Shown here in pieces: positions 10,745-31,155 of a stretch of 64,000 bases of DNA (the stretch's first letter is position 1; the number at the start of each line of letters is the position of its first letter). A model generated the notes under the pieces. The model saw only the letters and a program-made list of their open reading frames with translations. It made no database searches and was not told the DNA's origin. The stretch is from Arthrobacter sp. SLBN-122 (GTDB lineage: Bacteria; Actinomycetota; Actinomycetes; Actinomycetales; Micrococcaceae): NCBI RefSeq assembly GCF_006715165.1, contig NZ_VFMS01000001.1, positions 930,001-994,000 of the forward strand, in the 5' to 3' direction. The translations under genes were made by a program, and so were the position numbers.

Positions 10745-11362
10745 ATGACTCCCCCTTCCAAAGCACCCGCCGTCACCGCACTCGCCCCTGAAGCCCTCCA
10801 GTCCTGGATCAAGGAGCACCAGGACCTTGTGGTCATCGATGTGCGTTCCGCCGCTGAATTCGAATCCATGCACATCCGCGGCTCCTACAACGTGCCACTG
10901 CCGCTGCTGTCCGAGCACACAGACGAGCTCGCCGCCCGGCTGGGTTCGCGTGTGGTCCTGGTCTGCCAGTCCGGCGTGCGTGCCGAGCAGGCCCGCCAGC
11001 GCATGGCCACCGTTGGCCTGGACACCGCTTACGTCCTCACCGGCGGCGTTCCCGGCTTCGCCGCCGCCGGCGGCGACGTGGTCAAGGGCAAGGACCGCTG
11101 GGACCTGGAACGCCAGGTCCGCCTGGCCGCAGGCTCCCTGGTGATGCTGGGCCTGGCCGGGGGCAAGTTCGTCTCGCCCAAGGTCCGCATGCTGGCCGGC
11201 GCCATCGGCACCGGGCTGACGTTCTCGGCCGCGACCAACACCTGCGCCATGGGCAAGGCCCTGTCTGCCATGCCGTGGAACAAGGCCGCCAAGGAGCCCA
11301 CCCGCGAAACCGCCATCCTGCAGCTTCCCGTGCAGCCGGCTGAAGAGGGCGCCGCCGCATGA
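10745..11362 (+). CDS. Rhodanese fused to DUF2892 membrane domain (YgaP/CstA-like)
   Basis: This is a 205-residue protein. Residues 15-105 form a rhodanese domain ([19 protein letters not shown], active-site loop CQSGVR with Cys74). Residues about 120-185 form a DUF2892-type membrane hairpin ([15 protein letters not shown] and [19 protein letters not shown]). The same domain order occurs in YgaP, a membrane sulfurtransferase. Cys74 should carry a persulfide; the membrane part may take it from, or pass it to, a membrane partner. ATG 10745 is the first start after the operator array and has GAGAGG upstream. Its stop overlaps the TauE start by 4 bp (ATGA). Confidence 0.9.
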
Positions 11363-12117
11363 TTCCGGCCCTGGGTCTGGGGCTCGTCGTCGGCGTCGTA
11401 CTGGGCGTAGTGGGCGGCGGCGGGTCCATCATCGCTGTCCCGGCCCTGGTGTACGGCGTGGGCATGAGCCCCGCCCAGGCCATTCCCACCTCCCTGCTGG
11501 TGGTGGGGATATCCTCCCTGGCAGCCCTGCTGCCCCGGATCCGGGAAGGCCTGAACTGGCCCGTGATCGCCCTGGTGGGGGGCGCCGGCATCCCGGCAGC
11601 CTGGGCCGGCGCGGCCGTGGGCAAGCTGCTGGACCCGACCATCCTGATGCTGGCTTTCGCCGTGATCATGGTGGCCGCGGGCATCCGGATGCTCAGCAAG
11701 CCCCGCGAAAGCGAAGGGTCCTGCAGCACCGGGCCGAACCGGGCATTCCGGTCCTGCGCCCCAAAGGCCGTGGGAGTGGGCCTGCTGGTCGGGTTCCTCA
11801 CCGGATTGCTGGGCGTGGGCGGCGGCTTCCTCATCACCCCCGCGCTGACCATCTTCCTGGGCCTGCGCATGAAACAGGCCGTCGGCACATCCCTGGCCAT
11901 CATCGTGGTCAACTCGGCCGCCGGGTTCAGCGCCCACGCCGCCGGCTACACCATCGACTGGGCCACCACCCTGGCGTTCGCCATCCCGGCGATCGTGGGA
12001 TCGGTGGTTGCCGCCCGGTTTGCGCGGCGGCTGAAGGACAAACACATCCGCATCTCATTCGCCGTACTCATCTTTGCCGTCGCGGCGTGGGTCACCGCCG
12101 GCACGGTCACCGCCTGA
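11359..12117 (+). CDS. Sulfite exporter TauE/SafE family permease
   Basis: This 252-residue protein has about eight hydrophobic segments and the duplicated TauE/SafE motif: [20 protein letters not shown] near the N-terminus and again [20 protein letters not shown] near residue 145. The family exports sulfite, sulfonates or similar sulfur anions. In cst-type operons it is thought to remove the sulfite or thiosulfate made during persulfide oxidation, which fits this setting. Translational coupling to the upstream rhodanese is indicated by the ATGA overlap. Confidence 0.92.
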
Positions 12118-12139
12118 CCCATCCATAGAGGAGAGCACT

Positions 12140-12481
12140 ATGGGACTGATCGATTCCCTCAAGAAGGCCTTCAGCAAGCCCTACAAGACGATTTCCGTGG
12201 CACAGGCCAAGGAACTCCTGGGTTCGGGGGCCACACTCATCGACGTCAGGTCGGCCCAGGAGTGGCGGACCGGACGGGCGCCGCAAGCCAAGCATGTCCC
12301 CCTGGACCGTCTGCAGGCCAGCACCGCCGGCATCCAGAAGACCCATCCGGTCATCGCAGTCTGCGCCTCGGGAGTTCGCTCGGCCTTGGCAGCCCGGCTC
12401 CTGGCCGCCAAGGGCTACGACGCCTATTCAGTGCGCGGCGGAATGGCCGCCTGGCGCCAGGCCGGCGAACCCGTCCGCTAG
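12140..12481 (+). CDS. Single-domain rhodanese-like sulfurtransferase
   Basis: This 113-residue protein has a short amphipathic N-terminus (GLIDSLKKAFSKPYKTIS) and one rhodanese domain: TLIDVRSAQEWRTGRAPQAK and the active-site loop CASGVRS with Cys75. The closing SVRGGMAAWRQAG is typical. It should accept sulfane sulfur on Cys75 and pass it to a thiol. An AGAGGAGAG site precedes ATG 12140, 22 bp after the TauE stop. It is the second of three separate rhodaneses in this operon. Confidence 0.92.
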   Translation: MGLIDSLKKAFSKPYKTISVAQAKELLGSGATLIDVRSAQEWRTGRAPQAKHVPLDRLQASTAGIQKTHPVIAVCASGVRSALAARLLAAKGYDAYSVRGGMAAWRQAGEPVR

Positions 12482-12530
12482 CAACACCACCACCAGCTCC
12501 AGCCACAAACCACTTCAAAGGAGAACCACC

Positions 12531-12827
12531 ATGGCTGAAATCACCATCACCGAAGCCGAACAGCGCCGCTCCACCGCCCGGATCCTCGACGTCCGCGAGG
12601 ACTTCGAGGTCGCCGAAGGCATGATCCCCGGCGCCCTGCACATCCCCATGGGCCAACTCCAGGCCCGCCTGGGCGAGCTCGATCCCGCTGTGCCCGTGAT
12701 CGCCGTCTGCCGCAGCGGCAACCGCAGCGCCGCCGTCGCGGACGCGCTGAACGGCGTCGGCTACAAAGCGGACACCATGGCAGGCGGCATGACCGCCTGG
12801 ACCCGCGCCGGACTCCCCACCACCTAG
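12531..12827 (+). CDS. Single-domain rhodanese-like sulfurtransferase (short form)
   Basis: This 98-residue GlpE-sized rhodanese has ARILDVREDFEVAEGMIPGA, the active loop CRSGNRS (Cys60), and TMAGGMTAWTRAG at the end. The loop differs from the CASGVRS and CQSGVR loops of its neighbours, suggesting a different sulfur donor or acceptor rather than simple redundancy. AAAGGAG precedes ATG 12531. It lies 49 bp after the previous rhodanese and 56 bp before thioredoxin. Confidence 0.92.
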   Translation: MAEITITEAEQRRSTARILDVREDFEVAEGMIPGALHIPMGQLQARLGELDPAVPVIAVCRSGNRSAAVADALNGVGYKADTMAGGMTAWTRAGLPTT

Positions 12828-12883
12828 GCCCTGCCGCAGCCGCCCCAAACCCCACCCCGCCCCGAAAGGACACGACAGAGATC

Positions 12884-13246
12884 ATGGCAACCATCGACAT
12901 CACCCAGCAATCCTTCGCCCAGACCCTGGAGGACAACAGCATCGTCTTCGTCGACTTCTGGGCAGCCTGGTGCGGCCCCTGCCGCATGTTCGCCCCCACG
13001 TACGGCGCCGCCGCTGAACGCCACCCGGACATCACCTTCGCCAAGGTGGACACCGAGGCCGAACAGGCGCTCGCGGCAGCAGCAGACATCACCTCCATCC
13101 CCACCCTGATGGCCTTCAAGGACAAGACCCTGGTCTTCTCCCAGCCGGGCGCGCTGAACGCCACTGGACTGGAGGAAGTCATCCAAGCCGTGAAGAACCT
13201 GGACATGGACAAGCTCCGCGCCGAGGCCGCACACCAGCACGCCTGA
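12884..13246 (+). CDS. Thioredoxin
   Basis: This 120-residue thioredoxin fold carries the classical active site WAAWCGPCRM (Cys30 and Cys33), cis-Pro in ITSIPTLMAF, and a normal length plus a short charged tail. It should reduce disulfides and persulfides. In this operon it is well placed to release sulfur from the rhodaneses or to reset the sensor, which is an inference from context. It is the last gene before a new promoter with its own CstR-type palindrome. Confidence 0.93.
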   Translation: MATIDITQQSFAQTLEDNSIVFVDFWAAWCGPCRMFAPTYGAAAERHPDITFAKVDTEAEQALAAAADITSIPTLMAFKDKTLVFSQPGALNATGLEEVIQAVKNLDMDKLRAEAAHQHA

Positions 13247-13284
13247 CCCCTCCCCCCGCGTTCCAGGCACTCCCACATCGCTCG

Positions 13285-13314
13285 TTGCGTTATACCCCCC
13301 GGGGTATCTATACT
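13285..13314 (+). promoter_or_regulatory. Promoter with CstR-type operator, upstream of the persulfide dioxygenase
   Basis: A -35 (TTGCGT, 13285-13290) and a -10 (TATACT, 13309-13314) are 18 bp apart. The spacer holds ATACCCCCCGGGGTAT (13292-13307), 7-bp perfect arms around a 2-bp centre. This places a second, independent sensor-controlled start inside the cluster. Confidence 0.82.
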
Positions 13315-13361
13315 GGATCCAGAACACTTCCCAAACCCCTTTCACTGAAGGAGAGCACCAG

Positions 13362-14762
13362 ATGCTTATCGAGCGCATTTACGACGAAGACCTCGCGCAG
13401 GCCAGCTACCTGATCGGCTGCCAGGCCAAGGGCGAAGCCCTTGTGGTGGACGGCCGCCGCGACATCGCCGTCTACCAGGACATTGCCGCCAAGAACGGCA
13501 TGAAGATCACCGCCGTCACCGAAACCCACATCCACGCCGACTACCTCTCCGGCACCCGCGAGCTGGCCGCCGCCACCGGCGCCAAGATCTACGTCTCCGG
13601 CGAGGGCGGACCGGACTGGCAGTACGAATTCGACGGCGAGCGGCTGTACGACGGCGACACCATCAGTCTGGGCAACATCAGCATCAAGGCGGTCCACACC
13701 CCAGGGCACACGCCCGAGCACCTGTCCTTCCTGGTGACCGACGGCGCCTTCAGTGACCAGCCCGGCTACCTGCTCTCCGGAGACTTCGTCTTCTCCGGCG
13801 ACCTGGGCCGGCCCGACCTGCTGGACGAAGCAGCCGGCGGCATCGACACCCGCTTCCTGGGCGCAAAGCAGCTCTTCGCCAGCCTCCGCGACAAGTTCCT
13901 CACCCTGCCGGACTACGTCCAGGTCCACCCCGCCCACGGCGCAGGCAGCGCCTGCGGCAAGGCACTGGGTGCCATCCCTTCCTCCACGGTGGGTTACGAA
14001 CGCCTCTACGCCTGGTGGGGCCCCTACCTCGCGGCCAACGACGAGCAGGGCTTCATCGACGAACTCCTCGAGGGCCAGCCCGACGCCCACGCCTACTTCG
14101 GCCGGATGAAGCGCGAAAACCGGGTAGGCCCGGGCATCATGGGCGAACGTGCCCCGCTGCAGGAACTGGACACCGCCGGCGTCGCCAAGGCCCTGGCGGA
14201 GGACACCCTGACCTTCATCGACACCCGCCCCAACGACGAAGTCCACCAGGGCACCGTGGTCCGGTCCCTGAACGTTCCGGCCGGCAAGTCCGTGGCCAGT
14301 TACGGCGCCTGGGTGGTCAACCCGGAGACGGACAAGAACCCGCTGGTGCTGCTGGCCAAGGACCAGGAGCAGGCCCAGGACATGTGGGACCACCTGGTCC
14401 GCGTGGGCATCGACAACGTGGCCGGGTACATCACAGGCATCGAGGGGCTGCCCACCTTCACGCCGAAGCTGATCCGGCCCGAGGACCTCGACAAGTTCGA
14501 CGCCGCCATGGTCCTGGACGTCCGTAACAAGACCGAGCACAAGGCAGGGCACGTGCCGGGCTCGTACCAGCTCAGCGGCGGCCGCCTCATGTGGCACCTG
14601 GATGAGCTGCCTGCGGAAGGCAGCATCGTGTCCTACTGCCAGTCCGGCGTCCGGAACTCCGTCGCCGCCAGCGCCCTCCGCCGTGCGGGGTACGACGTCG
14701 TCGAACTCGATGGCAGCTACGCCGCCTGGAACGCCTGGCAGAACAGCGTCCCCGCCGCCTAA
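13362..14762 (+). CDS. cstB: Persulfide dioxygenase-rhodanese fusion (CstB-like)
   Basis: This is a 466-residue, three-part protein. Residues 1-240 form a metallo-beta-lactamase fold with THIHADYLSG (His56, His58, Asp60), a later GHTPEH, and VHPAHGAGSACG, matching ETHE1/CstB-type persulfide dioxygenases. A first rhodanese-like domain (about 265-350) has no active Cys (LVLLAKDQEQAQD in its place). The second (about 370-466) has an intact CQSGVR loop with Cys426. CstB of Staphylococcus aureus has the same order and converts persulfides to thiosulfate through bound sulfite. A good ribosome site (AAGGAGAG) precedes ATG 13362. Two strong hairpins follow the stop. Confidence 0.93.
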   Translation: MLIERIYDEDLAQASYLIGCQAKGEALVVDGRRDIAVYQDIAAKNGMKITAVTETHIHADYLSGTRELAAATGAKIYVSGEGGPDWQYEFDGERLYDGDTISLGNISIKAVHTPGHTPEHLSFLVTDGAFSDQPGYLLSGDFVFSGDLGRPDLLDEAAGGIDTRFLGAKQLFASLRDKFLTLPDYVQVHPAHGAGSACGKALGAIPSSTVGYERLYAWWGPYLAANDEQGFIDELLEGQPDAHAYFGRMKRENRVGPGIMGERAPLQELDTAGVAKALAEDTLTFIDTRPNDEVHQGTVVRSLNVPAGKSVASYGAWVVNPETDKNPLVLLAKDQEQAQDMWDHLVRVGIDNVAGYITGIEGLPTFTPKLIRPEDLDKFDAAMVLDVRNKTEHKAGHVPGSYQLSGGRLMWHLDELPAEGSIVSYCQSGVRNSVAASALRRAGYDVVELDGSYAAWNAWQNSVPAA

Positions 14763-16164: not shown

Positions 16165-16407
16165 TTACCCGTGCCCGGCGACGTACGTGACCAGCCCGTC
16201 CACCGTTGCCACCGCAGGGTAGTCGGCCTCCGGAATGTCCACGCCCGTGGAGCCCGCAATGACCTCCACCAGGTGGAGGAAATCCAGCGAGTCCAGTTCC
16301 AGGTCCTGGCGCAGCCTTGCGCTGCCTTCCAGGTCTTCGGGTTCGACGTCAGGGGCTACTTTCCCGATCGCCGCCTCCACCGCCTGGCGTGCGTCCTGTT
16401 GGTTCAC
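16165..16407 (-). CDS. Acyl carrier protein (stand-alone)
   Basis: This 80-residue acidic protein has the ACP core RLRQDLELDSLDFLHLVEVI, with Ser40 as the expected 4'-phosphopantetheine site (DSL). Helix IV ends in VDGLVTYVAGHG. It is the last gene of the E1/E2 operon, 13 bp after the E2 gene. No ketosynthase, malonyl transferase or other fatty-acid synthesis gene is nearby. A free ACP next to a 2-oxoacid dehydrogenase and an acyl-CoA synthetase suggests that an acyl group is loaded on it, but the route is unknown. Confidence 0.92.
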   Translation of the reverse strand: MNQQDARQAVEAAIGKVAPDVEPEDLEGSARLRQDLELDSLDFLHLVEVIAGSTGVDIPEADYPAVATVDGLVTYVAGHG

Positions 16408-16420
16408 GGCTCCTCCTCGC

Positions 16421-17914
16421 TCACAGTTCCTCCGGTTTCTGCAGCAGTTCGTCGATGCGGGCCAGGAAACGGCCGCCGCGCAGCCCGTCGCTCACCCGGT
16501 GGTCCGCGGACAGGGTGGCGATGGCGGCGTGCCGGGTGCCGAGCATTCCGTTGTGCGCCCACGGCTGCTCCAGCACCTTGCCGAAGCCCACCATGGCTAC
16601 CTGCGGCGGGTAGATCACCCCGTACACGCTTTCGACGCCGAGATCGCCCAGGTTGGTCACGGTGATGGTGGGGTCGGCCATCTCGGCGCGCTGCAGCCGG
16701 CCGGCCCTGGCGCGGCTGACCAGGTCACGCAGCTGGTCCATGAGCTGGTCCAGGCTGAGCGTGTGGGCGTCGTGCAGGGCCGGCGCCACCAGCCCGCCGT
16801 GCCGCAGGGCCACCGCCACGCCCAGGTGCACGCTGTTGCTGGGCTGGAACGCACCTTTGGTGAAGAAGCCGTTCATGTCCGGCACCTCCTTCGCCGCAAT
16901 CGCGGTCGCCTTCAGCAGCAGGGCGGACGGAACCAGGCGCGATGACACGGGCCGCTGCTGGTTTGCTACCTGCATCCACGCCATCGCGGCCGCCAGGTCC
17001 AGCGTGGTGGAGAGGTAATAGTGCGGGATCTCCCGCTTGGACCGGGACATCAGCGCGCCGATCGCCTGCCGCAGGCTCTCCGCCTTGCCGCCGGCCGCCG
17101 TCGGCTGCTTCCGCCCGGACGCCTCCGCCATGGGTTTGGGCCGGGCTTCCGGCCGTGGGGTTTCCGACGGCGGTGCTTCCGCCGGCTTTTCCGCGCCCTG
17201 TACGTTGGGTGACTGTTCCTTGGGTGCCCGTCCCCGGGGCGGCACCGCGGAGAGCACGTCATCTTCCGTCACCGCGCCTCCCGGGCCTGTCCCCGTGACC
17301 GCGTGGAGGTCGACGCCGAGTTCTGCGGCCAGCCGCCGGGCCAGCGGGGACGACCGCACGCGGTGGGTTTCAGCCGCCGGCGCAGCGGGCGCTTCGGCAG
17401 CCACTGGTGGAGCAGCCGGGGCTTTGGTGACGGACGCTGCCGCGGCGCGTTCGACGTCGGCCCTCACCACTTCACCGCCGGGCCCGCTGCCGCTGATGCG
17501 TCCGACGTCGACCCCCAGCGTGTGCGCAAGGTGCCGCACCGGCGGCGGGACCTTTGCGTCGTGTTCCGCCGGCCCGGACCCGGCGCTGCGGTGAGCGGGC
17601 GTTGGCTCTTCAGCTGTCAAAGGTGAGCGGGCGTCGGGGGAATTGGCGCCAGAGGTGAGCGGGGGTGGCAGTTCGGCGGGGGTGGCGGTGATCCGGGCGA
17701 TGGGGGTGCCCACGTCCACGGTGTCGCCGATGTCCACCAGGAACTCGGCCACCACGCCTTCCTGGAACGACTCGATGTCCATGACGGTCTTATCCGTGTC
17801 CACGGCCGCCACCAGGTCGCCCTTGTGGATGTAGTCCCCGGGCTTGACCAGCCACTCCACCACCTTGCCGTGCTCCATGTCCGCGCCGAGGGACGGCATC
17901 CGGAGTTCAGGCAT
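16421..17914 (-). CDS. 2-oxoacid dehydrogenase E2, lipoamide acyltransferase
   Basis: This 497-residue protein has one lipoyl domain (residues 1-78; lipoylated Lys42 in [11 protein letters not shown]). Two peripheral subunit-binding domains follow: [20 protein letters not shown] at about 130-160 and [20 protein letters not shown] at about 190-225. Pro/Ala/Glu linkers lead to a catalytic acyltransferase core ending in DHRVSDG (His472, Asp476). Two binding domains with distinct sequences are unusual; one normally suffices for E1 and E3. The start overlaps the E1-beta stop by 8 bp. The acyl group handled (acetyl or branched-chain) cannot be decided from sequence alone. Confidence 0.92.
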
Positions 17915-18908
17915 TGGCCCCCACGGCCCTTCGCGCCGCGGCCACCACCCGTTTCACGGACGGCAGCGCTGCCTCCTCCAGGTGCTTGGCGTAGGGGACG
18001 GGCACCTCAAGGCTGCAGACGCGTTCCACGGGGGCGTCGAGGTCGAAGAAGGCCTGCTCACAGATCCTGGCCGAGATCTCGGCGGAGATGCTGCCGCTGC
18101 GCCAGCCCTCGTCCACCACCACCGCGCGGTGCGTCCTGGCCACACTGTCTACGACGGTGTGCGCATCCAGCGGGCGGAGGGTGCGAAGGTCGATGACGTC
18201 GGCGTCAATGCCCTCCCCGGCCAGCTGCTCGGCGGCGTCCAGCACCATGGGCAGGGTGCCGCCGTACGTGATGAGCGTCAGGGTGTCCCCGCTGTCCCCC
18301 TGGCCGTCCGCCCGGCGCAGGACCGCTGCCTTGTCGATGTCCACCGCCCCGGCGTCGTCGTCAAGTTCCCCTGCCATGTTGTACAGCGAGCCGTGTTCGA
18401 AAATCAGCACCGGGTCGGGGTCCTGGAGGGCGGTCCACAGCATGCCGCGGGCATCAGCCAGCGTGGCCGGCGCCAGGATCCGCAGCCCGGGAATGTGCGC
18501 GTACCAGCCCTCCAGGCTGTGCGAGTGCTGGGCGCCGAGCTGCCGTCCGGCGCCGGTGGTCATCCGGATGACGATGGGCACGTTGAACTGGCCGCCGGAC
18601 ATGTGCAGCAGGGTGGCGGCGTTGTTGATGATCTGGTCCAGCGCCAGCAGGCTGAAGTTGACGGTCATGATTTCGACGACGGGACGCATCCCGCCCAGCG
18701 CAGCCCCGATCCCGGCGCCCACGAACCCGGACTCCGACAGCGGGGTGTCACGGATCCGCTCCGGCCCGAACTCCTCCAGCAGTCCCAGGCTGACCGCAAA
18801 GCTTCCGCCGTACCGGCCCACGTCCTCGCCCATGAGGAACACCCGTTCGTCGCGCTGCATGGCGTCGCGGAGGCCCGCGCGCATGGCTTCCCGGTAGGTG
18901 GTTTTCAT
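17907..18908 (-). CDS. 2-oxoacid dehydrogenase E1 component, beta subunit
   Basis: This 333-residue protein of normal length has the transketolase pyrimidine-domain features: [18 protein letters not shown], the conserved glutamate region [20 protein letters not shown], and [20 protein letters not shown], typical of PdhB/AcoB/BkdB. The C-terminal half has [20 protein letters not shown] and [20 protein letters not shown]. It pairs with the alpha subunit, whose stop overlaps this start by 4 bp, to form the thiamine-diphosphate E1 enzyme. Confidence 0.93.
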
Positions 18909-19956
18909 CGTGCCGCCCCGCCTTTCCCTGCCTGGCCGCCGCCGGTGGCCGCGGTACCTGTACTGCCGTCATCGGTCCGGTCGCTGTAGACGAACCGGGT
19001 GAGTTCGGACACCGGTTCCGGCGTCCCGTTCTCGGCGAATCCGACCGCCGTGCTGATCTCCGCGTCCACGTCCGCCGTGAGCGCAGCCCATGTCTCCTCC
19101 GGCAGCTGCCCCGCCGCCTGCATGGTCCCCCGCAGCAGGCTGAGGGGGTCCCGTTCCATCCACCGGGACACCTCGGATTTCTCCCGGTACAGCTCCGGAT
19201 CGAACATGGAATGGGCTCGGAACCGGTAGGTGCGCAGCTCCAGGAAGTGCGGTCCGCCGCCGGACCGGACGGCGTCCACCGCGCGCCGGGCAGCTTCCTC
19301 GACAGCGAGCACGTCCATGCCGTCCACGGCCCAGGCGGAAATCTCATACCCGGCGGCCTTTAGGGCGATGTCCGTCTGGGATTCGGAGCGGCCCAGCGCG
19401 GTTCCCATGGCGTAGAGGTTGTTTTCGCAGCAGAACAGCACCGGCAGCTGCCACAGTGCTGCCAGGTTCATGCTTTCGTGGAACTCGCCTTCGGCCACGG
19501 CCCCTTCGCCGAAGAAGCAGACGGTCACCCGCTGGCGTCCGGCCATCCGGTCCGCGAGCGCCAGCCCAACGGCGAGCGGCAGGCCGCCTGCCACGATGGC
19601 GTTTCCGCCGTAGAAGCGGGTGGCGGCGTCGAAGAGATGCATGGAGCCGCCGCGGCCGCGGCAGCATCCCTCGGCGTGCCCGTACATTTCGGCGAGGATG
19701 GCCCCTGCCGAGACGCCGCGCAGGAGGGCATGGCCGTGTTCACGGTACGTGGCCACCACCGCGTCCTCCGGCGAAAGGGTTTCCATGACCCCGGCGGCCA
19801 CGGCTTCCTCGCCGATGTAGACGTGCAGGAAGCCGCGGATCTTGGCGGCGCTGTACAGCTCGATGCATTTTTCCTCGAGCCGGCGCACCCGCAGCATCTG
19901 CCGCAGGAGGTGCAGGGCGTGTTCCGGATCCGGGACGGTCTGGCCCCTCAGGGTGC

Positions 19957-19960
<4 letters not shown>
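18905..19960 (-). CDS. 2-oxoacid dehydrogenase E1 component, alpha subunit
   Basis: This 351-residue thiamine-diphosphate enzyme has [34 protein letters not shown] and [16 protein letters not shown], which are typical of pyruvate and acetoin dehydrogenase E1-alpha. The diphosphate motif runs from [15 protein letters not shown] to ENN, with Glu where most relatives have GDG. The loop YRFRAHSM is the usual phosphorylation-loop region. The tail is Gly/Thr-rich. It overlaps the synthetase gene upstream and E1-beta downstream by 4 bp each. Confidence 0.92.
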
Positions 19961-21803
<1,843 letters not shown>

Positions 21804-21807
<4 letters not shown>

Positions 21808-23144
21808 CCCCTGGCCTCCGGCCTGGACCGTCCCACTGGGGACGGCAGGAGGTACTGCCGGAACCAGTCCGCAGCCAGACTCGCTGCCATGGCCAGGGTG
21901 CCTGGTTCCTCGAAGAGGTGGGTGGCCCCGGGGATGATCTCCAGCCGGGTGGGGGCCTGCATGGCCGCCATAGCCTGGCGGTTCAGGGCCAGCACCTGGT
22001 CGTCGGCGCCGCCGACAATCAAGAGGGTGGGGGCTTTCACGGCCGCGAGCCGCGGCCCGGCCAGGTCCGGGCGGCCACCGCGGGAGACGACGGCGGCCAC
22101 CTCGGCGCCGGGCTCGGCTGCGGCCCACAGCGCGGCGCCGGCTCCGGTGCTGGCACCGAAGTAGCCGATCCGGCCGGCGGAACCGTCATGCCGCGCTTCG
22201 AGCCAGTGGGTTGCGGAGGAAAGCCGCTGGGCCAACAGGCCGATGTCGAACACGTTGGCCCGGCTGACCTCTTCTTCTGGCGTGAGCAGGTCGAGGAGCA
22301 GCGTGCCCAGGCCCGCAGCGTGCAGGACGGAGGCCACGAAGCGGTTGCGGGGGCTGTGGCGGCTGCTGCCGCTGCCGTGCGCGAAAAGGACGGTGCCGTC
22401 ACACCTGGCCGGCAGGTAGAGGCTGCCGCGCAGGACAACACCGCCCGCCGGGATGTCGACGTCGTCCGCCAGACTGCCGTGCACGCGTTCCCCGCCGCTG
22501 TGGTGCGGAGCCGGTGCAGCCGCATCAAGCAGCTGCACCACCTCGCCATCGTCCGTGGGCGAGAAGTCGTGGTAGTAGTAGCCCACGGCTTTGAAGTCCT
22601 GGGGCGAGAGCAGGCACACGACGTCGTCCGGTTCCTTGAGTTCAACGATGGCACGTGCGGGGGCTACAGGAACGGCAAGGACCACCTTCGCCGCACCGAG
22701 CTGCCGGGCCACCTGGCAGGCAACCTTTGCGGTGGAGCCGGTGGCGATGCCGTCGTCCACGATCACCACGGTGCGCCCGGTGAGGTCAAGGCGGCGGCGT
22801 CCCTGGCGGAACCGTTCCACCCTGCTTTCCAGCAGTGCCCGCTCCTGCTGTTCCACCTGTTCCAGGTCCTCCTGGGAAACCCGGGCCATGGAGATGGTGC
22901 GCGGATCCAGGACCCGGACGCCGCCCTCCCCGATGGCTCCCATGGCCACCTCGGGCTGGAACGGAACGCCTAGTTTCCGTACCACGATCACGTCAAGCGG
23001 CGCCTCGAGGGCCTTTGCCACCTCGAATGCCACGGGGACGCCGCCGCGGGGCAGGCCCAGCACCACCACGTCCCGGCCACGCAGGCCGGCGAGCCGCTTG
23101 CCCAGCCGCCGCCCGGCGTCGGACCTGTCATGAAAGGCAGCCAT
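21804..23144 (-). CDS. Phosphoribosyltransferase - dienelactone-hydrolase-like fusion
   Basis: This is a 446-residue two-domain protein. Residues 1-210 form a type I phosphoribosyltransferase fold with [17 protein letters not shown] as the PRPP-binding loop and [19 protein letters not shown] at the start. Residues about 225-440 form an alpha/beta hydrolase with [14 protein letters not shown], a nucleophile elbow [10 protein letters not shown], and the late [11 protein letters not shown]is. The same fusion occurs in mycobacteria (Rv0571c, in the DosR dormancy regulon). The substrate of neither domain is known. It starts within the stop of the small ORF upstream (TAATG) and ends overlapping the synthetase. 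Confidence 0.9.
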
Positions 23145-23281
23145 TACCGGCGCCCGCCGGCGGTGGACCCGCCAGGCGGGAGTTCCGCCATGGCTTCCAG
23201 CGCTGCACGTGAGCCCGGACGGACGGCAGCTTCAACAAGCACGGTTCCATACCCTGCTTCACGGCGCAACACCTCGGTCAT
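23144..23281 (-). CDS. 45-residue ORF translationally coupled in the operon
   Basis: This small ORF encodes a 45-residue protein, MTEVLRREAGYGTVLVEAAV then RPGSRAALEAMAELPPGGS and a short basic end. GCGGAGG lies 8 bp before the ATG. The stop overlaps the next start by one base (TAATG), and the previous stop is 14 bp upstream, which is the same spacing style as the rest of the operon. I do not recognise the family. It may be a real small protein or mainly a coupling leader; conservation in relatives would decide. Confidence 0.6.
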   Translation of the reverse strand: MTEVLRREAGYGTVLVEAAVRPGSRAALEAMAELPPGGSTAGGRR

Positions 23282-23295
23282 GGCGGATACCTCCG

Positions 23296-23652
23296 CTAGT
23301 GCGACATGCGGAAATTGTGATGGGCATCCGTGCTGGGCTTAATGGCCGCGGCCGTGACCACCAGCGCAACAGCGCCCGCAATCCAGGATGTCCACGCAGC
23401 GCCCATGGCGCCGGTGTAGGTGCCCATCCACGGCGAGAGGATCAGCAACGCGGCAAGCGCAGCCTGGGCGTATTCCATGACCGGTGTTCCGGGCATGGCC
23501 AGGTTGATGACGCCGCTGATGATCAGGAGTCCGCCGAAGAGGAGCATGAAGGTGGTGGACATATTCTGCTGCCGTGTCCACAGGACCGCGATGGCGGTGA
23601 AGAGACCGGCGGCAACCGTTACGTAGTCCTGCCACCGATACCACTTTTTCAC
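23296..23652 (-). CDS. SPW-repeat membrane protein
   Basis: This 118-residue protein starts MKKWYRWQDYVTVAAGLF and has four hydrophobic segments. The pattern WQDYVTVAAG followed by ILSPWMGTYTGAMGAAWTSW is the SPW repeat, seen in small membrane proteins of actinobacteria and proteobacteria; the role is unknown. I chose GTG 23652 because GAAAGGAA lies upstream; the longer open frame has no start signal. The 3' end is 14 bp from the next small ORF, so this is probably the first gene of the E1/E2/ACP operon. Confidence 0.8.
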   Translation of the reverse strand: MKKWYRWQDYVTVAAGLFTAIAVLWTRQQNMSTTFMLLFGGLLIISGVINLAMPGTPVMEYAQAALAALLILSPWMGTYTGAMGAAWTSWIAGAVALVVTAAAIKPSTDAHHNFRMSH

Positions 23653-23958
23653 TGGGTTTTCCTTTCTGATCCGGGCGGGCGGCCTTGCGCTGTCCATCCC
23701 GGGAGGGCGTTCGCCGCCCGCAATTCCAGTCAACGCTTCCCGCACACCACCTTCTAGGGCAGAAAGACCTAGGGCTCAGGACCGCGGCCCGGCGGACGGA
23801 TCCGTCCCCTTAATTCACGGCCAATTCACAGCGATTGCCCCTGCACAACGCGGCCCCGGTATGCAAGAGTGGCGGCAGTGCTGGGGCGCCACTCCTGCCC
23901 GGCCCGGGCTGTTGTAAAGGCCGGGCAGGGCAACAGCTGCGACCAAAAGAGGCCGGAC
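23653..23958. other. Divergent intergenic region (306 bp)
   Basis: This lies between the SPW operon and the phosphoesterase genes and should hold both promoters. It contains a perfect 11-bp hairpin (23894-23904 with 23919-23929; CCTGCCCGGCC arms, 14-nt loop) in the leader of the plus-strand gene. That could be an attenuator or simply a structured 5' UTR. I saw no named operator. Confidence 0.45.
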
Positions 23959-25102: not shown

Positions 25103-26746
25103 GTGGGCTTTTTTCCAGGCACGGGACGACGGCGGACTATCCTGGCCGCTGCCGTGATGGTGGCGGTTTTGGTGATTCTCGCCGTCGTACTTTCCACCAC
25201 GCTGCGTCCAGGCCCACCCGCCGCAAATGGAACCGAGACGGGAATTGCCAAGATCAAGCACGTGGTGATCATTACGCAGGAGAACAGGTCCTTCGACAGC
25301 TACTTCGGCACCTACCCCGGCGCCGACGGGATCCCGGCGAAGGACGGCAAACCCGCCGTCTGCCTTCCGGACCCGGCACGGGGCGGCTGCGTGGCGCCCT
25401 TCTACGATTCGTCGGACAGCAACGACGGCGGCCCGCACAGTCCTGCGGATGCGGCGGCGGACATCAACAACGGGGCCATGGACGGCTTCGTGGCCCAGGC
25501 GGAAAAGGGCATTGCCCACTGTGAACCGGAGGCCACCGACTGCGCGTACAAGACCAGGAAAACCGATGTGATGGGCTACCACGACCGGAAACAGCTGCCC
25601 ACCTACTGGACCTACGCGGACAACTTCGTGCTGCAGGACCACATGTTCACCTCCGCCGCAGCGGGCAGCCTCCAGGCCCATCTGTACATGGTCTCGGAAT
25701 GGTCAGCCAAGTGCGCCAAGCCGGGGGACCCGTCGTCGTGCGCCGGTGCACTGGAAGGGCTGGACAATCCACCGGAGAAGGAAAACTTCGATGACAGCCT
25801 GATCGGCAAATGCCAGGAAAGCCAGGACGTGCAGCCCTGCCGTGAAGCCCTTGAGGCAGCCGGCGCCGACCCCGGCCTGGTGGTGCAAACCCAGCAGGTG
25901 GCCACCGCCAGCTGTAAACGCACCGATTCCTATCCCACCTGCAAGGCCGCGGTGGAGGCCGCCAACCTTCCGGCTGCCCTGAAGGAGAAGCTGGCAGGAG
26001 CAGCCAAGAACCTGAAACAGCCGAACTATGCCTGGACCGACCTGACCTACCTGCTGCACAAACATGCAGTGTCCTGGGCGTACTACGTCTTCAGCGGCAC
26101 CGAGCCGGACTGCCGCAACGATGCCGCCACCTGTGACCCCATTGAACAGGACGCCGAGACGCCGGGCCGCTGGAACCCGCTCCCCTACTTCGACACTGTC
26201 AAGGAGAACGGCGAGCAGGGCAACATCAAATCGTTGAGTGGTTTCTACGACGACGCCCGGCAGGGCAGGCTTCCCGCGGTCAGCTGGGTGGCACCCAGCG
26301 ATGAGGTCAGCGAACACCCTCCGGCCAAAGTCAGCACCGGACAGCAGTATGTTGCCGGGCTGGTCAACGCCGTCATGAGCGGCCCGGACTGGGACAGCAC
26401 CGCCATCTTCCTGAACTGGGACGACTGGGGCGGGTTCTACGACCATGTCCAGCCGCCTGCGGTGGACAACGCCGGGTTTGGCCTTCGCGTGCCGGCCCTG
26501 GTGATCAGCCCCTACGCCAAAAAGGGCTACATTGACCACCAGGTCCTCAGCCAGGACGCCTACTTCAAGTTCATCGAGGATGATTTCCTGGGCGGCGAAC
26601 GCCTCGACCCCGCCACCGACGGCCGGCCGGACAACCGCCCCGGGGTCCGCGAAAACAACCCGCAGCTGGGCGATCTCACCAAGTCCTTTGACTTCAACCA
26701 GGCTCCGCTGCCGCCGTTGATCCTGCCCGACGCAACCACGTACTGA
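25103..26746 (+). CDS. Membrane-anchored phosphoesterase (phospholipase C / acid phosphatase family)
   Basis: This 547-residue protein has one N-terminal membrane segment (residues 11-33), then a PF04185 phosphoesterase domain. [20 protein letters not shown] carries the catalytic region, [15 protein letters not shown] and [15 protein letters not shown] follow, and [20 protein letters not shown] is the closing part. About 150 residues in the middle are rich in paired Cys, suggesting disulfides outside the cell. It may release phosphate or head groups from lipids. The GTG start at 25103 is tight against the previous stop, so translational coupling is likely. Confidence 0.87.
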
Positions 26747-30442: not shown

Positions 30443-31155
30443 CACAGCTGCCGCTGGACGATCTGACCGCTGCCGTGGCCCGCATCCGCGGGCTCCTGCT
30501 GACGGAGGAGAAGGTGGACCGCGCGGTCTCACTCCTGGCCAAGGCCATTAAGGAGTCGCTGCCGGGCAGTCCCGGTGCCGGCGTGTCCTTGCTGGATGCC
30601 GAGGGCAAGCGCACGAGCAGCGCGGCCACCGACTCCCTGGTGGAGAAGCTGGACGCTGCCCAGTACGAGCTGGGTGAGGGCCCCTGCCTTACGTCCTGGG
30701 CGGCCGGAAAAGTGGTCATCATCGAGGACCTCCAAACCGATACCCGGTGGCCGCGGTGGCAAACCGCAGTGGCGTCACTCCCGGTCCGGTCGGTGGTGAG
30801 CGCGCCGCTGGTGGCCGGCAAGGAAGCGCTGGGCGCCTTCAAGATCTATTCAGCCCTGCCAGGCCAATACGACGAATCAACGGGGCGCGCCCTGGCCCTC
30901 TTTGCCGAAACTGCAGCCACCCTGCTGGCCCACATCCAGGGAACCGAAGCCCCGCTCCGGATGGCAGAAAGCCTTAAGGCGAGCTTGGCCAGCCGGGACA
31001 CCATCAATCGTGCCTGCGGCATGCTGATGGAGCGGCAGGGCATCAGCCATGAACGGGCCTTACAGCAATTAATCCAAAACGCGCGGGTGTCAGGTGCCAC
31101 CCTGGTTGAGGCCAGCGAGCAGCTGGCCACCAGGGTGCCGCCTGCAGGCTTGTAG
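30439..31155 (+). CDS. GAF-ANTAR transcription antitermination regulator
   Basis: This is a 238-residue protein. Residues 25-165 form a GAF domain (SLPGSPGAGVSLLDAEGKRT, ELGEGPCLTSWAAGKVVIIE, SVVSAPLVAGKEALGAFKIY). Residues about 178-235 form an ANTAR RNA-binding domain (TINRACGMLMERQGISHERA, then LVEASEQLA). ANTAR proteins bind tandem hairpins in leader RNA and prevent termination. The GAF domain probably senses a small molecule or redox state. It is the third gene of a four-gene coupled unit. Its RNA targets are not evident here. Confidence 0.9.
   Translation: MTQLPLDDLTAAVARIRGLLLTEEKVDRAVSLLAKAIKESLPGSPGAGVSLLDAEGKRTSSAATDSLVEKLDAAQYELGEGPCLTSWAAGKVVIIEDLQTDTRWPRWQTAVASLPVRSVVSAPLVAGKEALGAFKIYSALPGQYDESTGRALALFAETAATLLAHIQGTEAPLRMAESLKASLASRDTINRACGMLMERQGISHERALQQLIQNARVSGATLVEASEQLATRVPPAGL

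Follow-up and report, generated by a model that had tools for sequence, protein, structure and literature searches.

A pyruvate dehydrogenase-type gene cassette with its own acyl carrier protein in Arthrobacter and distant bacteria: a possible dormancy-linked module

Gene content of the Arthrobacter locus

The window, a stretch of 64,000 nucleotides from Arthrobacter sp. SLBN-122, carries on its minus strand a run of genes for, in order, an SPW-repeat membrane protein (SPW), a 45-aa ORF, a phosphoribosyltransferase (PRTase)-hydrolase fusion, an AMP-forming acetate-CoA ligase (ACS), E1alpha, E1beta, E2, and a free acyl carrier protein (ACP), with spacing that ranges from an 8-bp overlap between E1beta and E2 to a 14-bp gap between SPW and the 45-aa ORF (Table 1). 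Coordinates and Pfam matches bear out the preliminary description of a tight, operon-like run that is devoid of fatty-acid-synthesis genes and encodes an E2 with two subunit-binding domains (two E3_binding stretches by Pfam). Its grouping of all eight genes stands in part: all are adjacent here, but SPW, the 45-aa ORF, and the PRTase-hydrolase lie outside a smaller conserved unit, ACS-E1alpha-E1beta-E2-ACP, which we refer to as the cassette.

Table 1. Features of the run and its upstream region, in window coordinates
Feature	Position	Strand	Basis or remark
DevR/DosR/OsdR-type box AGGTCTTTCTGCCCT	23756..23770	-	118 bp upstream of SPW start
SPW-repeat membrane protein, first gene of run	23296..23652	-	PF03779, 44.3 bits
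45-aa ORF, decayed remnant of a Trypco1-domain gene	23144..23281	-	longer relatives PF19493
Phosphoribosyltransferase-dienelactone hydrolase fusion	21804..23144	-	PF00156 and PF01738
AMP-forming acetate-CoA ligase (ACS), cassette gene 1	19957..21807	-	PRK04319, 907 bits; AMP-binding
E1alpha, pyruvate dehydrogenase type, cassette gene 2	18905..19960	-	TIGR03182; PF00676 (E1_dh)
E1beta, cassette gene 3	17907..18908	-	NF006667, 396.5 against cut-off 321; Transket_pyr/C
E2, cassette gene 4	16421..17914	-	lipoyl, two peripheral subunit-binding domains, 2-oxoacid_dh, DHRVSDG
E2 lipoyl domain	17690..17908	-	PF00364, residues 3-75; lipoyl lysine at residue 42 in DTDK
Free ACP, cassette gene 5	16165..16407	-	PF00550, 27.5 bits, above cut-off
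ACP serine 40 in LDSLDFL	16288-16290	-	phosphopantetheine site

A five-gene cassette conserved across distant bacteria

All five genes occur in the order ACS-E1alpha-E1beta-E2-ACP in 91 of the 106 loci fetched; 14 of the 15 incomplete loci are cut by contig ends, and the other (L033) has the cassette but no detectable ACP. Where a locus extends 350 bases or more past E2, ACP follows E2 in 89 of 90 cases, a linkage that is near-obligate, and ACP-bearing loci fall into nine phylum-level groups (grouped by record title). The preliminary description had made its reading depend on the gene order being conserved outside this strain; the cassette retains one order across very distant bacteria, and because it recurs there the arrangement is not a matter of chance.

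Canonical E1/E2 relatives are organized differently: i) ACP is found in none of 6 canonical loci (one of which, L044, extends only 300 bases after E2), even though their E2s bear lipoyl domains; ii) E3 is encoded within the locus in 4 of these 6, as opposed to 1 of 106 cassette loci; and iii) in a tree the canonical rows fall on one side of a branch with support 98/99, where we disregard rows OUT4kb_L012, L019, and L020, which are wrong-strand translations on very long branches (the tree still contains them; the genes of the OUT4kb_L012 and L019 genomes are correctly represented by L041 and L045). E3 is nonetheless available to the cassette hosts: the absence of E3 remarked on in the preliminary description is true of the locus but not of the genome, which encodes an E3 elsewhere (above the TIGR01350 cut-off), and an E3 gene was found in all 16 of the other cassette genomes examined.

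A single locus, L063, has an in-frame E2-ACP ORF, but the neighboring ACS is broken into two ORFs, so that assembly error or decay is possible and we treat the fused frame as a hint only. No ACP domain was found in the best 120 of 7996 scored E2-profile homologues, nor in the best 120 of 8000 scored ACS-profile homologues. Among the matches listed in a search of CC-licensed PMC literature, judged by title and abstract opening, none described the module or a transfer from E2 to ACP; a pyruvate dehydrogenase module with its own ACP may thus be undescribed, which a search confined to CC-licensed PMC does not prove.

Enzymes and carriers of the cassette

E1 is of the ThDP-dependent, pyruvate type by model: E1alpha passes the NCBIfam pyruvate dehydrogenase model TIGR03182 (440.8 against a cut-off of 393.85 bits) and NF006667 is likewise above its cut-off. 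Among solved chains, the best matches to E1alpha carry the title mitochondrial pyruvate dehydrogenase E1 alpha, and those to E2 the title acetyltransferase component of pyruvate dehydrogenase complex. The motifs of E2 are intact, the lipoyl lysine K42 being invariant among 18 aligned E2s and the His/Asp motif canonical; and since DHRxxDG is present in 93 of 99 cassette E2s and the phosphopantetheine serine in 91 of 91 cassette ACPs, both arms look usable.

In the window E2, as in 84 of 93 E2s of the cassette, the chain stops 27 residues past the Asp of DHRxxDG, compared with 28 to 32 residues in 10 canonical E2s (7 of the 93 end at 28 to 29, inside the canonical range), and Tyr replaces the canonical Asn of IIN in 82 of 99. 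A shortened C-terminus is typical of the cassette clade, and the window E2, judged by its sequence length, lacks the C-terminal knob of a 24- or 60-mer core. According to PMC10415282, canonical E2 cores place a C-terminal 3-10 helix at the trimer-trimer contact, and actinobacterial AceF departs at this knob too, by an insertion; a short C-terminus alone therefore does not bar membership in a pyruvate dehydrogenase complex.

ACS exceeds the acetate-CoA ligase cut-off (PRK04319, 907 against 729, scored on an over-long frame); its start is set at the ATG overlapping the PRTase-hydrolase stop, the 723-aa version from a GTG being too long. The motif WWxTETG, whose tryptophan we take to be that of the acetate pocket, occurs in 102 of 103 cassette ACSs.

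Two loci, one for each gene, link the cassette to modification of its carriers: in L121 a second AcpS (holo-ACP synthase) overlaps ACS, and that genome has two PF01648 matches, one of them in the cassette (the Arthrobacter genome has one in all), while in L123 a lipoate ligase (LplA) gene follows ACP. A candidate AcpS near the L110 cassette proved to be a weak fragment only.

Upstream genes and regulation

Of the loci scanned, L047-L050 alone had a match to SPW. The 45-aa ORF has no Pfam domain; longer relatives occur in 8 loci, the two submitted to Pfam (L048 and L079) both match PF19493, and relative to L048-L050 the window copy has lost two internal segments; it is the remnant of a Trypco1 gene of about 115 aa. 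The PRTase-hydrolase is the only full-length match in its own genome, and 15 of 81 long loci have a PRTase or PRTase-hydrolase match nearby, making it a neighbor rather than part of the module; like SPW, it is a local addition to the cassette. A review counts Rv0571c, a putative phosphoribosyltransferase, among the dormancy genes of mycobacteria.

Upstream of SPW lies a DevR-type sequence, AGGTCTTTCTGCCCT, that agrees with a DevR-type consensus at 11 of 14 positions (shuffle p=0.023), and the identical 15 bases precede SPW in L047-L050. By this consensus, which was picked post hoc after the upstream sequences had been read, 29 of 44 Micrococcales-type loci have an upstream site at p≤0.05, whereas the reversed consensus yields one in 4 of 44, the related loci not being independent of each other. 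Under a matrix built from published OsdR sites the signal is weak overall: the window box is not significant (p=0.64), and p≤0.05 is reached by only 11 of 43 loci in one set and 7 of 32 in another. The canonical DosR 20-mer was also tried, and has few matches upstream of cassettes. Across the whole genome, a looser form of the box has fewer matches than the reversed pattern used as control (87 against 254), so we claim no genome-wide enrichment. The Arthrobacter genome also has a DevRS-like island, in which a LuxR-type regulator has a GAF histidine kinase, USPs, and PPDK as neighbors; a box scan of this island had no control. The hint of hypoxia or dormancy in the preliminary description thus finds backing in the DevR-type site (by the post hoc consensus) and the island, but not in the published OsdR sites, and in soil actinobacteria the cassette may be part of a low-oxygen dormancy response.

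A possible acetyl pathway and its alternatives

We propose that the cassette is a dormancy-linked variant of pyruvate dehydrogenase in which the acetyl group of lipoyl-E2 passes to a dedicated ACP, ACS links acetate and ATP, and control is DevR/DosR/OsdR-like; we put the probability of this reading at roughly 0.45. Specifically, i) E1 would decarboxylate pyruvate and load the acetyl group onto the lipoyl arm of E2; ii) the acetyl group would move to the phosphopantetheine arm of the ACP, instead of or besides CoA; iii) the lipoyl arm would be re-oxidized by an E3 encoded elsewhere and docked through a retained subunit-binding domain; iv) ACS would, under energy limitation, convert acetyl, AMP, and PPi to acetate and ATP, and otherwise salvage acetate; and v) in actinobacteria the module would be induced under a DevR/DosR/OsdR-like regulator for low-oxygen survival. 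For the reverse direction of an AMP-forming ACS there is precedent in Acs1 of Syntrophus aciditrophicus, reported in PMC4992975 to make ATP from acetyl-CoA, AMP, and PPi. Two acetyl routes meeting on ACP, as the preliminary description had it, would fit this anatomy, and both ACS and E2 may still use CoA.

CoA is the acceptor of the textbook 2-oxoacid dehydrogenase complexes. E2 and ACS might use CoA as usual, in low-energy scavenging or overflow of acetate and pyruvate, with ACP as an accessory (which might, for example, buffer acetyl groups, aid assembly, or act as a regulator that senses acyl status). ACS and E1alpha both pass the models for ordinary enzymes of CoA pathways and most cassette E2s retain DHRxxDG, yet an accessory ACP is expected neither at one fixed place in nearly every locus nor with an AcpS of its own, as in the one locus L121; we consider this explanation unlikely, if the best of the alternatives.

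Two others are much less probable, to a similar degree. ACP could be the octanoyl carrier for lipoylation of E2 (octanoyl-ACP, LipB, LipA), E2 being a lipoyl protein and octanoyl-ACP the usual lipoate precursor; but the canonical relatives manage lipoyl E2s with no linked ACP, L123 keeps its ACP despite having in LplA an ACP-independent route, and neither LipA nor LipB appeared among 20 recurrent-neighbor representatives in a general Pfam scan not aimed at them. Or acetyl-ACP could prime the synthesis, elsewhere in the cell, of a lipid or polyketide, a free ACP being the usual carrier of such chains and loading from E2 to ACP reportedly occurring in some NRPS pathways; the scanned neighbors, however, belong mainly to stress, carbon stores, and transport (USP, HSP20, PPDK, GH65, cation ATPase); dehydrogenases of the short-chain and acyl-CoA types occur among them, but a synthase does not. 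Least probable of all is an operon of the acetoin dehydrogenase type, with acetyl-CoA synthetase re-activating acetate: the E1alpha-E1beta-E2 and ACS set presumably resembles the Ralstonia aco genes, but E1alpha passes the pyruvate dehydrogenase model, the score for the acetoin E2 model NF011457 falls short of its cut-off (83.9 against 307), and to our knowledge ACP is not a component of aco operons.

If the dormancy-linked pyruvate dehydrogenase variant is correct, a second kind of pyruvate oxidation, widespread and with ACP and ACS fixed beside E1/E2 and E3 outside the locus, would have been overlooked, and the DevR/OsdR dormancy response of actinobacteria would gain a concrete module of energy metabolism. 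A bolder form, to which we lend little credence, is a CoA-independent relay from pyruvate through acetyl-lipoyl-E2 and acetyl-ACP to acetate and ATP, in which a trimeric, uncaged E2 would let a protein carrier reach its acceptor entrance, and which in many phyla would provide ATP under low oxygen or energy starvation while sparing the CoA pool.

Comparison with known systems

The DevR/DosR and OsdR regulons (PMC5069765, PMC5309233) resemble what is seen here in the type of the candidate box, in USP and PPDK genes, in the pairing of a LuxR-type regulator with a GAF kinase, found in the Arthrobacter genome, and in the dormancy listing of Rv0571c. They differ in that the E1/E2/ACP module is not in Table 1 of PMC5069765, whose main text contains neither “acyl carrier” nor “synthetase”. 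Acs1 of Syntrophus is likewise an AMP-forming acetyl-CoA synthetase, a likeness drawn from function; the main text of PMC4992975 has no occurrence of “pyruvate dehydrogenase” or “acyl carrier”.

The pyruvate dehydrogenase complex with alpha2beta2-E1 shares E1alpha/E1beta and an E2 built of lipoyl, subunit-binding, and acyltransferase domains. The cassette departs from it in that its operon keeps a fixed place for a dedicated ACP and for an AMP-forming ACS, its E3 is encoded away from the locus, and its E2 has a short C-terminus where canonical cores carry the helix between trimers. In the biosynthesis of naphthyridinomycin and quinocarcin, PDH-like E1/E2 proteins (NapB/NapD-NapC and QncN/QncL-QncM) reportedly load a two-carbon unit onto a free ACP; the unit is said to be a ketose-derived hydroxyethyl group and the setting an NRPS cluster, and we liken these systems to ours by description. 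In contrast to this Nap/Qnc loading, the cassette has a pyruvate-type E1, an acetate-CoA ligase, and stress genes as neighbors.

Conservation of the five-gene order

The order ACS (AMP-forming acetate-CoA ligase), E1alpha, E1beta, E2 and ACP (free acyl carrier protein) seen in the window forms a genuine module that is both widespread and conserved, a variant of pyruvate dehydrogenase. Our 106 loci comprise the best 80 of 577 confirmed in an E1alpha search of genome contigs; 7 drawn from 198 sampled genomes of the strain's own phylum (E1alpha identity 61-70%, next match at most 46%); and 19 from two further phylum samples centred on the genomes of L122 and L123, where the cassette occurs in 6/297 and 14/398 genomes, centre genomes counted (L122 and L123 were already in the set; L123's genome added a second locus, L168). 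Specifically, i) 91/106 loci carry all five genes on the same strand in the order given in the preliminary description, and the genes detected in the remaining 15 keep that order, contig ends cutting 14 of them and L033 alone having no detectable ACP; ii) ACP is present in 89 of the 90 loci with at least 350 bases after E2, a count leaving out 16 loci with a cut E2 or too little sequence after it, of which L106 and L109 also carry ACP; iii) the four junctions are spaced -60 to 150 bases in 92/99, 95/100, 94/100 and 90/91 cases, starts being extrapolated; and iv) ACP-bearing loci, many from MAGs, fall by record title, at least one apparently mis-binned, into nine groups (Actinomycetota, Myxococcota, Thermodesulfobacteriota, Pseudomonadota, Deinococcota, Binatota, Chloroflexota, Gemmatimonadota and Acidobacteriota). 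Within Micrococcaceae the cassette is patchy (11/149 genomes, own genome counted). L123, titled Alphaproteobacteria and clustering with the Desulfuromonadales record L125, may be the mis-binned one.

The window occupies positions 930001-994000 of one contig of 4,466,944 bases, and Arthrobacter and Pseudarthrobacter are the nearest named relatives among the matches listed. All eight tightly spaced minus-strand ORFs described earlier were found, seven (all except the 45-aa ORF) with a Pfam family, and Pfam sees the two subunit-binding domains in E2. ACS begins at the ATG at 21807, the GTG start of a 723-aa frame being wrong; the own genome has two PP-binding matches (E<=0.001), the cassette ACP and one at 30822. 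Of this eight-gene run, the conserved unit is the five-gene part, to which PRTase-hydrolase, SPW and a Trypco1 remnant have been added; among the loci scanned, only L047-L050 repeat the full arrangement of the window. This remnant is the 45-aa ORF, left over from the decay of a Trypco1 gene; eight loci (L047-L051, L076, L079 and L081) have longer relatives, and both of those given to Pfam (2/8 loci) contain PF19493.

Features located in the window, in other cassette loci and elsewhere in the own genome
Feature	Location	Strand	Remark
Region with TauE/SafE exporter (PF01925)	window 11359-14762		near a metallo-hydrolase/rhodanese-like protein identified by visual inspection alone; the two may form a sulfur-detoxification pair
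ACP	window 16165-16407	-	
E1alpha	window 18905-19960	-	
ACS	window 19957-21807	-	
45-aa ORF	window 23144-23281	-	
Divergent gene near operon	window 25103-26746	+	phospholipase C and acid phosphatase models matched below cut-offs
E2-ACP ORF	L063 11627-13735		single in-frame ORF
AcpS (PF01648, 52 bits)	L121 7843-8205		overlaps ACS start
Lipoate-protein ligase A	L123 4694-5716		starts about 93 bases past ACP
L134-L136 region	own genome 4.248-4.280 Mb		two USPs, PPDK, cation ATPases

Canonical relatives and E3

Six canonical loci (L040-L045; E1alpha 42-46% identical) have E1alpha, E1beta and E2, with no ACS or ACP match, L044 extending only 300 bases after E2. An E3-like ORF is present in 4/6 of them versus 1/106 cassette loci (L172), locus lengths differing; ACP and ACS therefore occupy the usual place of E3. 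The absence of E3 noted previously thus applies to the locus and not to the cell, as E3 scores above the model cut-off in the own genome; it does so in 16/16 other cassette genomes examined. In the E1alpha tree, read with three wrong-strand rows left out and a bootstrap short of full convergence, all canonical rows (14 in total, three pairs of them identical, only six long loci being informative on ACP) fall on the same side of a branch with 98/99 support.

Domains and neighbors

Active-site motifs are conserved: the [DN]S[LMFIY][DN] serine in 91/91 cassette ACPs, DHRxxDG in 93/99 E2s, WWxTETG in 102/103 ACSs, and the lipoyl lysine in 18/18 aligned E2s. The E1alpha ThDP/Mg motif reads GEG instead of GDG in 79/106 cassette loci; among five readable outgroup loci it is GDG in four and GEG in one. 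In 84/93 cassette E2s the distance from the D of DHRxxDG to the C-terminus is exactly 27 residues (28-29 in seven others and 24 in one, the last being fused), versus 28-32 in ten canonical E2s, and the IIN-motif Asn, kept in 9/10 canonical E2s, is Tyr in 82/99 cassette E2s. A smaller assembly of cassette E2 is plausible, because the canonical C-terminal 3-10 helix forms the trimer-trimer contact, according to PMC10415282.

The E2-ACP fusion of L063 may be an assembly error, because ACS there is divided between two ORFs. AcpS of L121 (Actinotalea lenta, whose genome has another AcpS outside the cassette) and the ligase of L123 would together supply both swinging arms, at one locus each. Neighbors in the 81 cassette loci that span 15 kb or more versus five outgroup loci, several queries being drawn from the surveyed loci themselves, were PRTase(-hydrolase) (15 versus 0), USP (13, 0), HSP20 (10, 1), PPDK (8, 0), cation ATPase (7, 1), GH65 (6, 0) and NiFe hydrogenase (3, 0).

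Regulation and proposed mechanism

An OsdR matrix from published sites (PMC5069765 Table 1) gave a weak signal, with p<=0.05 in 11/43 loci (L047-L090 plus window) and 7/32 others, and p=0.64 upstream in the window. A DevR-type consensus, picked after the upstream sequences had been seen, matched at p<=0.05 in 29/44 Micrococcales-type loci (exactly at -34 in 23/44), 4/13 other actinobacteria (one titled Acidobacteria) and 0/18 others, versus 4/44, 0/13 and 1/18 for the reversed control, near relatives among the rows not being independent. A looser box pattern showed no enrichment across the own genome. The L134-L136 region, where a LuxR-type response regulator adjoins a GAF histidine kinase and a scan without control placed DevR-type boxes near this regulator and the USPs, is a DevRS-like dormancy island.

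Judged by family identity, pyruvate would yield acetyl-lipoyl-E2, and the acetyl group would then pass from E2 to ACP, a transfer we infer because linkage to ACP is near-obligate and canonical kin lack it; ACS could run in either direction, the ATP-forming one having a precedent in the AMP-forming Acs1 of Syntrophus aciditrophicus (PMC4992975). The putative step with ACP as acceptor is the most interesting claim here. Loading of ACP by E2 has a precedent in NRPS pathways, which the proposed transfer would fit by analogy.
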